Shown here in pieces: positions 22,937 to 58,535 of a DNA stretch of 64,000 bases. This DNA is from Sandaracinaceae bacterium (GTDB lineage Bacteria; Myxococcota_A; Polyangia; Polyangiales; Sandaracinaceae): contig JAVJQK010000007.1 in the NCBI GenBank assembly GCA_040218145.1, positions 1 through 64,000 on the forward strand, read 5' to 3'. The stretch's first letter is position 1, and each line of letters starts with the position of its first letter. Below the pieces are notes generated by a model. That model saw only the letters and a program-made list of their open reading frames with translations, did no database searches and was not told the origin of the DNA. Both the position numbers and the translations under genes were made by a program.

Positions 22937-24523
22937 ATGACGAACACGACGAAGACGATCGCGATGATGCTGGCCCTCACCGGATGCACGCTCACTGGAT
23001 GCACCGGGCAGCTGTCAGTCGACGAAGAGGAGCTCGGTCACGACAGCCACGAGATGCTGGTGACGCCGGCCGAGCTGACCGACGGATGGAGCCGGGACGG
23101 CGACTGGCTGGTCTCCCCCGCGCTGGACGCGCCGGACGGAGCGAGCCGGGTCGGCGTGTTCGTCGGCCTGGTCGAGGAGGGCGCCCTGCCCACCCTCGAG
23201 GCGCGGCCGCTCCTGGGCGGCGAGCCGGTCGGCGACTGGGTGGCGATCGACGCGACCTGGAGCGAGGTCGACCACCACGTCGGCGTCGCGGAGCTGGGCA
23301 CGATCGGCGACGGCGCGGAGCTCCGCATCGCCGCGAGCGAGTCCGAGCGGCTGGCGCTCTTCCGCTGGAGCGCGGTGATCCCCGAAGAGGCGGTGCCGAT
23401 GAGCGTCGACGAGGAGCTGGGCGCGAGCCAGGAGGCGCTCCGGCGCGAGCTGTCCGGGCTCGGCATCGTCACGCGCTCGGCGTGGGGCGCGCGGGCCACG
23501 CGGTGCACGAGCCGTAACTCGAGCAAGGCCCGCATGGCCATCCACCACACCGTCACGCCGAGCAGCAACCCGGCGCGGCAGATGCGCGGCATCCAGCGCT
23601 ATCACATGGACTCGCGCGGCTGGTGCGACGTCGGCTACCACTTCCTCGTCGGCCAGGACGGCAAGGTCTACGAGGGGCGGCCCCTGCACCTCATCGGCGC
23701 CCACGTCGGCGGCCACAACACGGGCAACATCGGGATCAGCTTCATCGGCTGCTTCCATCGCAGCGGCTGCAACACGTCGACCTACGGCCCCAACCGCCCG
23801 AACGACGCCTCGATCCGCGCCGCCGGGCGGCTCGTCGGCGAGCTGTCGCGCCTCTACGGGATCACGATCAACACGAGCAACCTCAAGGGGCACCGCGACC
23901 ACAGCGGGCAGGGCACGAGCTGCCCGGGCGACTACCTGCACGCGCGCCTCGGCGACATCCGCTCGATCGGCCGCAGCGGCGGCGGAGGCTCCACGCCTCC
24001 CCCCTCGAGCGGGGGCAGCTGCACGCACAGCCTCGGCGGGAGCTACGCGAACCGCGCGTGCAGCGCGAGCTGGCAGTGCTGCGATGGCCGCTGGGGCAGC
24101 CGCGGATCGTGCGGGAGCTGCCTCTGCACCGAGACGAGCGGCCGCACGGGCTGCACGAGCGCGGGCGGAGGCTCCACGCCGACCCCGCCGCCCGGCGCGA
24201 GCTGCACCCACAGCTACGGCGGGCGCTACGTCAACACCGCGTGCAGCGCGAGCTACCAGTGCTGCGACGGACGCTGGGGCAGCCGGGGCTCGTGCGGGAG
24301 CTGCTTCTGCACCGAGACGAGCGGGCGCACCGGGTGCAGCAGCCCGAGCGGTCCGCCCCCGCCCCCGCCCGGCGCGAGCTGCGGCCACAGCTACGGCGGC
24401 CGCTACGCGAACACCGCGTGCAGCGCGAGCTGGCAGTGCTGCGACGGCCGCTGGGGCAGCCGTGGCTCGTGCGGGAGCTGCTACTGCACGGAGGAGAGCG
24501 GCCGGACCGGCTGCGGGACCTGA
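22937..24523 (+). CDS. PGRP-type N-acetylmuramoyl-L-alanine amidase with three Cys-rich repeats
   Basis: 528 residues from ATG 22937 (a TTG four codons upstream is possible). The lipoprotein signal ends LTGC. After a ~150-residue beta-rich region comes an Amidase_2/PGRP domain (~180-350) with zinc ligands visible: His in MAIHHTVTPS, His in LKGHRDHSG and Cys in GTSCPGD, plus the GYHFLVGQDGKVYEGR core. From about residue 358, three ~50-residue modules follow at a ~60-residue period. Each contains CSAS(W/Y)QCCDGRWGSRGSCG, separated by Gly/Pro linkers. The repeats may bind wall or prey polymer. It cleaves the muramoyl-alanine bond outside the inner membrane. Confidence 0.88.
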   Translation: MTNTTKTIAMMLALTGCTLTGCTGQLSVDEEELGHDSHEMLVTPAELTDGWSRDGDWLVSPALDAPDGASRVGVFVGLVEEGALPTLEARPLLGGEPVGDWVAIDATWSEVDHHVGVAELGTIGDGAELRIAASESERLALFRWSAVIPEEAVPMSVDEELGASQEALRRELSGLGIVTRSAWGARATRCTSRNSSKARMAIHHTVTPSSNPARQMRGIQRYHMDSRGWCDVGYHFLVGQDGKVYEGRPLHLIGAHVGGHNTGNIGISFIGCFHRSGCNTSTYGPNRPNDASIRAAGRLVGELSRLYGITINTSNLKGHRDHSGQGTSCPGDYLHARLGDIRSIGRSGGGGSTPPPSSGGSCTHSLGGSYANRACSASWQCCDGRWGSRGSCGSCLCTETSGRTGCTSAGGGSTPTPPPGASCTHSYGGRYVNTACSASYQCCDGRWGSRGSCGSCFCTETSGRTGCSSPSGPPPPPPGASCGHSYGGRYANTACSASWQCCDGRWGSRGSCGSCYCTEESGRTGCGT

Positions 24524-40532: not shown

Positions 40533-41360
40533 GTGAGCGCGGAGCTCCAGCACGTCGAGGCCAACGGCGTGCGCTTCGCCTACTTCGAGGAGGGCGAGGG
40601 GCCGCTGGTGTTGCTGATCCACGGCTTCCCGGACACCGCCCACACCTGGGACGACCTGCGGCCCCGCCTCGCGGCGAAGGGCTATCGCGCCGTGGCCTAC
40701 TTCCAGCGCGGCTATCACCCGAGCGCGATCCCGATGCGGGACCCGGATCAGGAGACGATCTCGCGCGACGCGCTGGCCCTCATCGGCGCGCTGGGGGAGA
40801 AGAAGGCGATCGTCGTCGGGCACGACTGGGGCGCGACGGCGGCCTACGGAGCGGCCGCGATCGGCGGGCCGAAGAAGGTCGAGAAGCTCTTCACGGTCGC
40901 CATCCCGCATCCGCTCGCGATCAAGCCCACCGTCTCGAAGGTGTGGGGCGTGCGCCACGTCGTCACGTACAAGCTGCCCGGCGCGGCCAAGCGCTTCGCC
41001 AAGGACGACTTCGCCGCGCTGCGCGAGCTCTACGCGCGCTGGAACCCGAGCTGGACAGACGTGCCCGAGTCGGAGCTCGCGCCGGTCAAGCGCGCCTTCT
41101 CCAACCGCGCGAGCCTCGAGGCGGCGCTCGGCTACTACCGCACGCTGAGCCCGACTCCGCCGCCGTACCTTAAGAAGAAGATCGAGGTGCCGACGGTCGC
41201 CGTCGCGGGCACCGACGATCCGATCGCCGAGCTGAGCGACTATGAGCGCGCCGAGCGCTGGTTCACCGCGGGCTACACGGTGGAGACGATGCCCGGCGGG
41301 CACTTCCTGCACCGCGAGCACCCGGAGATCTTCGCCGAGAAGGTCCTCGCGCACCTGTAG
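40533..41360 (+). CDS. Alpha/beta hydrolase, epoxide-hydrolase-like
   Basis: 275 residues from GTG 40533. HGFPD (~30-34, oxyanion) and the nucleophile elbow VVGHDWGATAAY, whose Asp98 is typical of epoxide hydrolases and haloalkane dehalogenases. GTDDPIAEL and PGGHFLHREHPE supply the remaining acid/His (His ~257). Tyr residues that would activate an epoxide lie in the cap (KLPGAAKRF, ALGYYRTL) but cannot be pinned down. Cytoplasmic; substrate unknown. A 646-bp gene-free stretch of repeats follows. Confidence 0.85.
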   Translation: MSAELQHVEANGVRFAYFEEGEGPLVLLIHGFPDTAHTWDDLRPRLAAKGYRAVAYFQRGYHPSAIPMRDPDQETISRDALALIGALGEKKAIVVGHDWGATAAYGAAAIGGPKKVEKLFTVAIPHPLAIKPTVSKVWGVRHVVTYKLPGAAKRFAKDDFAALRELYARWNPSWTDVPESELAPVKRAFSNRASLEAALGYYRTLSPTPPPYLKKKIEVPTVAVAGTDDPIAELSDYERAERWFTAGYTVETMPGGHFLHREHPEIFAEKVLAHL

Positions 41361-41366
41361 CGGAAC

Positions 41367-41402
41367 GGGGGCTCGCGCAAAGGCGCAAAGTCGCAAAGAG
41401 GA
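41367..41402 (+). repeat. Flanking direct repeat, left
   Basis: GGGGGCTCGCGCAAAGGCGC followed by AAAGTCGCAAAGAGGA. A near copy lies at 41806-41841; together they frame the hairpin array. Confidence 0.75.
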
Positions 41403-41426
41403 GGCCTCTGCGATCGAAGTGCGCAG

Positions 41427-41805
41427 ACTCAGTTGAAAGTGAGATCGCAGCGTTCCAACTGAGCCCACACAGTCCAGTTGAGAGAGCCTATCGACTGAAC
41501 TGTGGCCACGCAGTTCAGTTGAGACCATCAATCAACTAAGTTGCGTCCGCACAGTTCAGTTGAGACCGCGCATCAACTGGATTGTGCTGGCACAGTTCAG
41601 TCGAGAGCGCCTATCAACTGAGTTGCGTCCGCACAGTTCAATTGAGACCGCCTATCAACTGGACTGTGCTGGCACAGTTCAGTCGAGAGCGCCTATCAAC
41701 TGGACTGTGCCCGCACAACCGCGAGCTCTGGACGCGACGTTCTGACTGAGCTCACGCAGTTCGATCGAGGGCGTACATCGATCGGGCTGTGTCCACGCAG
41801 TTGGA
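41427..41805. repeat. Array of 41-bp palindromic tandem repeats
   Basis: Five exact-period 41-bp units occupy 41494-41698 (starts 41494, 41535, 41576, 41617, 41658), with degenerate or shortened units on both sides (from ~41458 and to ~41803). Each unit holds a hairpin such as CTGGACTGTGCTGGCACAGTTCAG with a linker GAGACCGCCTATCA. Units alternate between two versions (GTTGCGTCCGCACAGTTCA and ACTGTGCTGGCACAGTTCA), giving an 82-bp higher-order period. GC is much lower than in the flanking genes. No coding signal. This array, its flanking repeats and a G-rich tract account for the stretch 41361-42006. Confidence 0.85.
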
Positions 41806-41841
41806 GGGGGCTCGCGCAAGGGCGTAGAGGCGCAAGGAAGA
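41806..41841 (+). repeat. Flanking direct repeat, right
   Basis: GGGGGCTCGCGCAAGGGCGT followed by AGAGGCGCAAGGAAGA, matching 41367-41402 with a few changes. Confidence 0.75.
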
Positions 41842-41953: not shown

Positions 41954-41987
41954 GGGCAGGGGCACGGGCAGGGGCAGGGGCAGGGGG
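41954..41987 (+). repeat. G-rich GGGGCA microsatellite
   Basis: Runs of GGGCAGGGGCACGGGCAGGG and further GGGGCA units. It could form a G-quadruplex on the plus strand and is C-rich on the minus strand, where it follows the stop and hairpin of the 42007 gene. A shorter relative lies at 19880-19898. Confidence 0.7.
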
Positions 41988-42008
41988 AGCAGGGCTTTGG
42001 CCCTGCTC
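41987..42008 (-). terminator. Hairpin with C-rich tract after the 42007 gene
   Basis: Nine-base-pair perfect stem GAGCAGGGC/GCCCTGCTC with a 4-nt loop, overlapping the stop codon. On the minus strand it is followed by CCCCCTGCCCCTGCCCCTGC. There is no T-tract. Same layout as at 19905-19921. Confidence 0.45.
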
Positions 42009-42549
42009 AGCGGATGTGGGTGATGTACCAGCGCGGGCCCCAGTTGATGAGGGTGCGCAGCTCGAAGCGGCGCTCGGCGCCGTCGACGCGGTAGTAGATC
42101 CAGTCGTGCCGGGAGGCCCAGTAGGGGACCGCGTTGGCCTCCTCGCGGCGATCGACCCAGCCGCCGCGGCGGGTCATGACGAGGCGGTCGAAGGTGGCGC
42201 CAGCGGGGATCTCGCCGTGCAACGCGTGGATGTCGCGCTCGTAGTGGCGAAGCAGGACCTCCCAGTAGCGCCGCGGGTCCGCGATGCCCTTGACGACGAG
42301 GAAGGGCTCGAGGGGGAAGAAGAAGTCGCGCGCCAGGGAGGGGTCGTCCTCGAGGATGGCCGTGAAGAGCTGCTCGGCGCGCTGCGCCGCGTCACCCACG
42401 GGGGGCCGACGGGCCGGGGGATCGCGCCAGTCGTTCTCGGCCGGGATGGCCAGCTCGCTCGGCTGGGCGGCGGCCATGGGGGACGCGGTGAGCGGCGTCG
42501 CGCTCGCGGCGAGGGTCAGCAGCGCGAGCGCGGGGAGGAGCTTTCGCAT
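42007..42549 (-). CDS. Secreted protein of unknown function
   Basis: 180 residues from ATG 42549, with a signal peptide (MRKLLPALALLTLAASATPLTAS). The mature part is a compact domain containing RAEQLFTAILEDDPSLARDFFFPLEPFLVVKGI, HYERDIHALHGEI and WASRHDWIYYRVDGAERRFELRTLINWGPRWYITHI. I do not recognise a family. The spacing suggests an NTF2-like or similar small alpha+beta fold, but that is a guess. Downstream are the hairpin and C-rich tract. Confidence 0.6.
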   Translation of the reverse strand: MRKLLPALALLTLAASATPLTASPMAAAQPSELAIPAENDWRDPPARRPPVGDAAQRAEQLFTAILEDDPSLARDFFFPLEPFLVVKGIADPRRYWEVLLRHYERDIHALHGEIPAGATFDRLVMTRRGGWVDRREEANAVPYWASRHDWIYYRVDGAERRFELRTLINWGPRWYITHIR

Positions 42550-57333: not shown

Positions 57334-58535
57334 AGCGTTCGACGATGACCCTGCTCGCGCTCGTGTTCGCGGGCTGCACCGCCAACCCGGGCGCCAACCC
57401 GAGCTTCGGCTGCGAGACCGACGCCGACTGCGACCGCGGCGTCTGCTACCGCGGCTTCTGCGTCGAGGGCGGCATGGACTCCGGGGTCGGCCCGGCCTGC
57501 GACGACTCCGCGCGCTGCTTCAGCGGCGAGGCCTCGCTCCGCGGCGTCGGCGCGTGCGCCGAGGGCTGCCTCCAGGACGTCGACGGCACCGAGATGTGCG
57601 TCGGCGAAGGCGCGCCCTCCGAGGAGACCTGCAACGAGGTCGACGACGACTGCGACGGCACGACGGACGAGAACTTCGATCTCCTGCAGGATCGCAACAA
57701 CTGCGGCGCCTGCGGCGCGGTCTGCGGGGTGGGGCTCGAGTGCTGCTCGGGTCGCTGCGTCGACCAGTCGGGCGACGCGCTCAACTGCGGCGCCTGCGGC
57801 AGGGACTGCGCCGAGGGCGAGGGCTGCTGCGGCGGGAGCTGCGCCCCGCTCGATCAGCCTGATAACTGCGGCGTCTGCGGCAACGCGTGCGGCCCGGGCC
57901 AGACCTGCTGCGACGGCGCGTGCGTGAACCCGCAGACGAGCCGTGACCACTGCATGACGTGCGGCAACGCCTGTGACGCGGGCGAGGACTGCTGCGGTGG
58001 GACCTGCGAGCTCGAGGACGCGCCCGCGTGCACCGCGTGCGATCCGACGTGCACGGGCGTCGACACCTGCTGCTTCGGGAGCTGCGCCGACACCGACAGC
58101 GACCCCCTCAACTGCGGCGGCTGCGGCATCGCGTGCGGCGCGGGCGAGCTGTGCTGCGGCGGCAGCTGTGTCGCCAACGACGAGGCCAACTGCGGCATGT
58201 GCGGGCGGACCTGCGGCGGGACCGAGCTGTGCTGCGGAGGCAGCTGCGTGGCCGAGGACAGCCGGAACTGCGGCACGTGCGGGATGACCTGCGACGCCGG
58301 CGAGCAGTGCTGCGCCGGCGGCTGCGTCGACACGCGCACCGACGAGCTGAACTGCGGCACGTGCGGAGAGATGTGCCGCGCCTCGGAGGAGTGCAGCAAC
58401 GAGAACTGCTGCCCGGCCGGTCAGAACTTCTGCGACGGCCGCTGCCGGGAGAACAGCAATGAATACTGCGGGTCGGGATGCGAGAGCTGCGGGTTGCTCT
58501 CGGGCTGCAACGGAACGAGGTGTGTGGGGCTGTAG
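57330..58535 (+). CDS. Large cysteine-rich repeat lipoprotein
   Basis: 401 residues from ATG 57330, which overlaps the previous TGA. Lipobox FAGC. After ~20 residues a DUF4215/MopE-like segment (CNEVDDDCDGTTDENFD) leads into about nine tandem ~25-30-residue modules. Each is of the type NCG.CG..C..GE.CC.G.CV. The repeated CC and C-x-x-C pairs suggest a rigid disulfide ladder on the cell surface. Function unknown. It is the second gene of a two-gene operon. Confidence 0.82.
   Translation: MKRSTMTLLALVFAGCTANPGANPSFGCETDADCDRGVCYRGFCVEGGMDSGVGPACDDSARCFSGEASLRGVGACAEGCLQDVDGTEMCVGEGAPSEETCNEVDDDCDGTTDENFDLLQDRNNCGACGAVCGVGLECCSGRCVDQSGDALNCGACGRDCAEGEGCCGGSCAPLDQPDNCGVCGNACGPGQTCCDGACVNPQTSRDHCMTCGNACDAGEDCCGGTCELEDAPACTACDPTCTGVDTCCFGSCADTDSDPLNCGGCGIACGAGELCCGGSCVANDEANCGMCGRTCGGTELCCGGSCVAEDSRNCGTCGMTCDAGEQCCAGGCVDTRTDELNCGTCGEMCRASEECSNENCCPAGQNFCDGRCRENSNEYCGSGCESCGLLSGCNGTRCVGL

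Follow-up and report, generated by a model that had tools for sequence, protein, structure and literature searches.

A 41-bp tandem array of hairpin units in a Sandaracinaceae genome and its probable kinship with arrays adjoining a helical-protein gene family of Myxococcota

In a Sandaracinaceae genome, an alpha/beta hydrolase gene and a gene of uncharacterised product face each other with their 3' ends. What is the row of short repeats in the intergenic (3'-3') space between them? The row occupies positions 41427-41805 of the 64,000-nucleotide stretch that was analysed as a whole (the window). The original prediction had described it as a 41-bp tandem array, and this was borne out by TRF, which gave a score of 270 at a period of 41 bp (75% identity) and of 330 at a period of 82 bp (84% identity). 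The 41-bp units stand in strict register, and both the existence of the array and its unit length are certain. The five exact units that had been counted became nine units, one of them strongly degenerate, plus a fragment, and the copies in register are 60-81% identical to the reference unit. In order, there is first an end unit of variant sequence (T), then a run of six core units (I), then a degenerate unit (T') resembling the reverse complement of T, and finally one more I and a partial T. The features are listed below; the repeat units have no strand assigned, and the bit scores are matches to R1, a covariance model built on the core unit.

40533-41360, + strand: alpha/beta hydrolase gene, neighbour of the array
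41426..41465: end unit T, variant hairpin CTCAGTTGAAAG..GCGTTCCAACTGAG; related variants start the arrays L011, L012, L014 and L015
41466..41506: core unit I1 (48.1 bits)
41507..41547: core unit I2 (40.6 bits)
41548..41588: core unit I3 (47.8 bits)
41589..41629: core unit I4 (46.1 bits); its junction type differs in the genome of Sandaracinaceae MED-G138
41630..41670: core unit I5 (48.2 bits)
41671..41711: core unit I6 (50.6 bits)
41712..41752: degenerate inverted T', similar to T in reverse complement
41753..41793: extra core unit I7 (37.1 bits)
41794..41805: truncated unit closing the array
42007-42549, - strand: gene of uncharacterised product, the other neighbour

The units had been predicted to be hairpins, and each core unit indeed forms one with an imperfect stem of about 14 bp and a 9-nt loop. 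When the array was folded and compared with shuffled sequences, none of 100 shuffles was as stable (z -10.3). A second dyad is found at each unit junction, so that dyad centres recur every 20.5 bp, and the 82-bp period arises because two junction types alternate. Covariation in the alignment of the core units was no higher than in column shuffles and was for this reason kept out of the evidence for an RNA. A 36-bp direct repeat of the GCAAAGGCGCAAAG type is present on both sides of the array (41367-41402 and 41806-41841, 83% identical), and sequences like it are found in other genomes (L018, L019).

Further arrays in the same genome were searched for with blastn and R1, as had been suggested. 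Six clear ones were found on the contigs C80, C94, C68, C71, C85 and C120, along with one weak single unit on C122; the counts of array types rest on such targeted searches. C80, C71, C68 and the window have the plan T - six I - T' in common; typically, the core units are six in number, with a variant unit at one end and an inverted one at the other. T and T' are inverted copies of each other in L014 and L015 (the loci on C71 and C68) and less clearly in L011 and in the window. In L014 and L015 the orientation of the units largely alternates. These two loci share the array together with 85 bp, in opposite orientation, but not the gene G described below, which indicates that the array was copied as a unit.

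When 56 further genomes of the order were searched with R1, no array was found, and among 84,980 species genomes a pattern scan matched only the sister genome MED-G138. MED-G138 has several arrays, most of them at orthologous places. At the locus orthologous to the window array the DNA is 98% identical and the number of units is equal, but one junction is of the other type. The proposed A-B alternation is therefore present in the window and not conserved in its orthologue. Unit number changes elsewhere between near relatives, as the prediction had asked to be checked: at C94 the window's genome and MED-G138 are two units apart, C85 has one core unit versus at least three, and one orphan array differs between two other genomes (see below). 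We propose that these changes occur via recombination or slippage. Two further observations concern MED-G138. About 160 bp from the array orthologous to that of the window, near a GGGCAG repeat (window 41954-41986), lies an insert of about 1.5 kb (L088:1791-3275) with a 368-aa open reading frame that, judged by eye, resembles an IS110-type transposase. Contig C282 stops, at the 3' end of L092, inside an array whose units are near-identical and number at least three; arrays may thus interrupt short-read assemblies and be undercounted.

Two arrays of the window's genome adjoin paralogs of one gene, here called G. Paralogs flank the arrays on C80 and C68 and that on C668 of MED-G138, share 59-72% protein identity with the C68 copy, and in all three cases point away from the adjoining array. 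The family is multi-copy, with 10 matches in the window's own genome, 12 in the complete genome G001, 9 in the complete genome G006 and others elsewhere. Its distribution is patchy, with 28 of 284 sampled Myxococcota genomes in several families and classes. Apart from the array, no conserved neighbour gene was found beside G, which has the layout of a solo cassette. A paralog is also present on the window's own contig (C7:148381-149145); it lies downstream of the array, at a distance of about 107 kb, and has no detectable array adjoining it.

The product of G has about 250-270 residues and is all-helical in an AlphaFold2 model (pLDDT 88.5). Four of the six G proteins checked are acidic, with a core pI of about 5, which is unusual for a simple DNA binder. 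Fold searches with the model returned nothing but generic helix bundles, whose scores were too low to be meaningful for helical models, and comparison with Pfam, NCBIfam, PHROGs, PADLOC and the PDB gave no credible match. The closest resemblance was to DUF6261 (PF19775), to which G aligns over most of the profile with a sub-threshold E value of 0.059. G is the best match to this profile in the 11 Mb genome, but its scores of 13.7 and 15 bits lie below the curated cut-off of 27 and do not make it a member.

The linkage between G and the arrays was measured in the flanks of 83 G copies, where arrays with a period of 39-44 bp and a score of at least 90 were counted and stretches of the same loci served as controls. 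Arrays were present in 51 of the 166 one-kb flanks compared to 2 of the 144 control stretches. This corresponds to 32.5 versus 1.1 arrays per 100 kb, an enrichment of about 30-fold per kb. The periods in the flanks were 40 bp (1), 41 bp (11), 42 bp (20), 43 bp (18) and 44 bp (1); the double period of 79-88 bp was also enriched, and other periods were not. Altogether, 55 of the 83 copies have a tandem array with a unit, or double unit, of 40-44 bp within 1 kb. An independent lag scan placed 56 of the 83 above the 97.5% control level, with best lags of 41-43. In 28 copies no array was detectable, in some of them owing to contig ends. Where the side could be given (n=50), the array was upstream of G in 30 cases and downstream in 20. 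We regard it as close to certain that arrays of 41-43 bp units are linked with G.

The arrays beside different G genes are not all alike. Where two G copies are at least 70% identical, their arrays are mostly similar in sequence, 9 of 10 such pairs exceeding the 99th percentile of the null, whereas pairs below 50% identity almost never share an array sequence, yet have the same period. By these pairwise sequence comparisons the array sequence is shown to track the sequence of G, and the unit length remains constant at 40-44 bp even between arrays of unrelated sequence. A single genome holds several mutually unrelated array types in few copies each. Units can be nearly uniform, with 95-98% identity in the G-linked arrays L011, G30_60 and G248_220. 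At L126, upstream of the G copy on C124 of the window's genome, and at L133, we observed an 82-bp repeat with two halves that have become dissimilar, which may be an intermediate in the evolution of the arrays.

The array types of several G genes also recur without the gene. Such dispersed copies are found in the window's own genome and in G001 and G006, at loci unlinked to G and scattered over the two complete genomes. Among 12 such places examined in G001 and G006, at least 10 have clear 41-42 bp arrays, and tblastn detected no G in the 7-8 kb examined at any of the 12. Likewise, tblastn found no G around the window array (13 kb) or at L012, L013, L014 and L016. The window array is thus very probably an orphan of the G-linked system of the C68/C80 type. 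One orphan at 6.644 Mb in G001 is missing from the aligned site in G006, where no target-site duplication was seen and the difference spans a wider intergenic stretch. At the orthologous orphan L259/L276, G001 has 5+5 units in two types of 41-bp block and G006 about seven units of one type. The guesses of a protein-binding array and of a growing hairpin family were good ones; arrays multiply and change length.

Is the array read as DNA or as RNA? The reflection symmetry of the unit consensus was compared with dinucleotide shuffles in 50 arrays and reached p<0.05 in 16, about a third. The combined p is about 1e-11 (2e-9 when the window type is left out), with the reservation that related arrays are not independent. 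In most single arrays the symmetry is non-significant, and exact palindromes are not universal. The excess of folding is near equal on the two strands (mean z -1.7 and -1.5), and in the stems of the window type G-T and A-C mispairs are equally frequent (45 vs 43). This lack of strand bias speaks against an RNA, since a constraint on single-stranded RNA should favour one strand. A spacing of four helical turns, which would place the sites on one face of the helix, had been proposed earlier and fits both the 40-44 bp units and their self-complementarity without strand preference. The fixed four-turn length and the missing strand preference therefore suggest that the sites are duplex DNA and serve a protein that is dimeric or multimeric, and on balance we favour the view that the array acts as duplex DNA bound by G.

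In the explanation that we prefer, by a modest degree of confidence, the window array is an orphan of a two-part element whose array is read as duplex DNA. The first part would be gene G with its all-helical protein of about 250-270 residues, and the second the tandem array of 41-43 bp units adjoining it. The array would present dyad-symmetric half-sites in a row, one every two helical turns or so, which its own G protein may recognise in cooperative fashion. In orphan arrays that protein would then have additional sites, spread in trans, in a relation that resembles that of RAYT transposases to REP/REPIN sequences with an unrelated protein. That the spread is driven by G is a more tentative proposal. 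With similar reserve, we suggest a new class of Myxococcota element, in which a helical protein might recognise, maintain and spread its own four-turn array, with a private sequence for each diverged paralog. The pairing of G with an array is apparently undescribed: no description was found in the literature, of which our coverage was incomplete, and absence from the resources searched is not proof.

An RNA could also account for a gene with an adjoining repeat array. The repeats would be transcribed, and the 41-43-nt units would bind G as in a type III toxin-antitoxin system or act as a protein sponge. The strong hairpins of the window type are in line with this idea, and so is the layout, as the single gene of ToxIN and its relatives is likewise accompanied by short tandem repeats (PMC8860590). 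However, the array of G is not fixed upstream, neither folding nor mispairs show a strand bias, and orphan arrays occur without a gene. No promoter- or terminator-like site was found at the window array. G is a helical protein of 250-270 residues without a match to a toxin or defence family, and no ToxN-like endoribonuclease was recognised in it by Pfam or PADLOC. We consider the RNA version unlikely, and a type III system was dropped as an identification on account of the variable side and the lack of a toxin match.

Less probable still is that the arrays are ordinary tandem repeats or MITE-like debris, and that they and G merely share intergenic niches that tolerate repeats. Intergenic repeats are common in bacteria, orphan arrays exist without G, and the inverted end units T and T' recall the terminal inverted repeats of MITEs. 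The BIMEs of enterobacteria are likewise extragenic arrays of imperfect palindromes, and the alternating orientation of units in L014 and L015 is reminiscent of them, but G-type arrays differ from BIMEs in unit sequence and length and are paired with G. Debris would not be expected to keep a period of 40-44 bp across unrelated sequences, to be enriched about 30-fold beside G over controls from the same loci, or to follow the identity of G in its sequence.

A role in nucleoid or chromosome organisation, with parS-like or macrodomain-like sites, G as a bridging protein and the spread as a by-product, appears quite improbable. It would suit the four-turn unit and the several scattered arrays per genome with several sites each, but G is present in only 28 of 284 genomes, and the array types do not form a genome-wide set of sites because they are mutually unrelated and have few copies each. 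A replication landmark, which the original prediction had considered, is not supported, as arrays are scattered across the complete genomes of relatives.

Among the known systems, RAYT/REPIN comes closest to the duplex-DNA element proposed here. There, a protein gene is flanked by its own palindromic repeat, with several types per genome and dispersed copies without the gene (PMC3116915). G similarly has its own adjoining repeat type that is also dispersed, but it has close paralogs, its repeats are 41-43 bp tandem arrays at few loci per genome, and it is not a Y1/HUH protein. No Y1_Tnp domain (PF01797) was matched in 33 G proteins, and the contigs that carry the two Y1_Tnp genes of the window's genome, C113 and C3, yielded no array unit; a RAYT was therefore dropped. 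TIGR-Tas loci have short tandem units or stem-loops up- or downstream of a protein gene, with a sequence that varies between loci (PMC12045711). The arrays of G share the tandem organisation, the placement on either side and the difference between loci, but they lack variable dual spacers, their units being up to 95-98% identical, and they are dispersed in the chromosome as orphans. In G, Pfam detected no Nop domain, and no Nop protein was among the structure matches listed. TIGR-Tas, considered for its stem-loop arrays, was dropped for want of variable spacers.

The remaining candidates were rejected. CRISPR had been doubted from the start, and rightly so, as whole units are repeated head to tail without unique spacers. 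Coding repeats do not fit units of 41 and 43 bp, which are not multiples of 3, and Rfam gave only a chance microRNA match. A phage or plasmid origin was discarded because the array and G had no match except for one weak Streptomyces plasmid stretch (E 0.9).

The link between G and the arrays turns an unexplained class of intergenic repeats into a system that can be tested. Should each G protein recognise its own array, some genomes would contain about ten orthogonal pairs of protein and DNA array, which would be a natural data set on the evolution of binding specificity and a possible source of tools. If the element is real, it would be a second, independent case like RAYT/REPIN of a gene and a dispersed repeat persisting together over the long term, and what keeps such pairs alive would become testable in cultured myxobacteria.

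Two other tandem repeats are present in the window, at 23981-24514 (about 180 bp) and 58134-58329 (about 78 bp). Both resemble cysteine-rich coding sequence and are probably ordinary repeats of secreted proteins.
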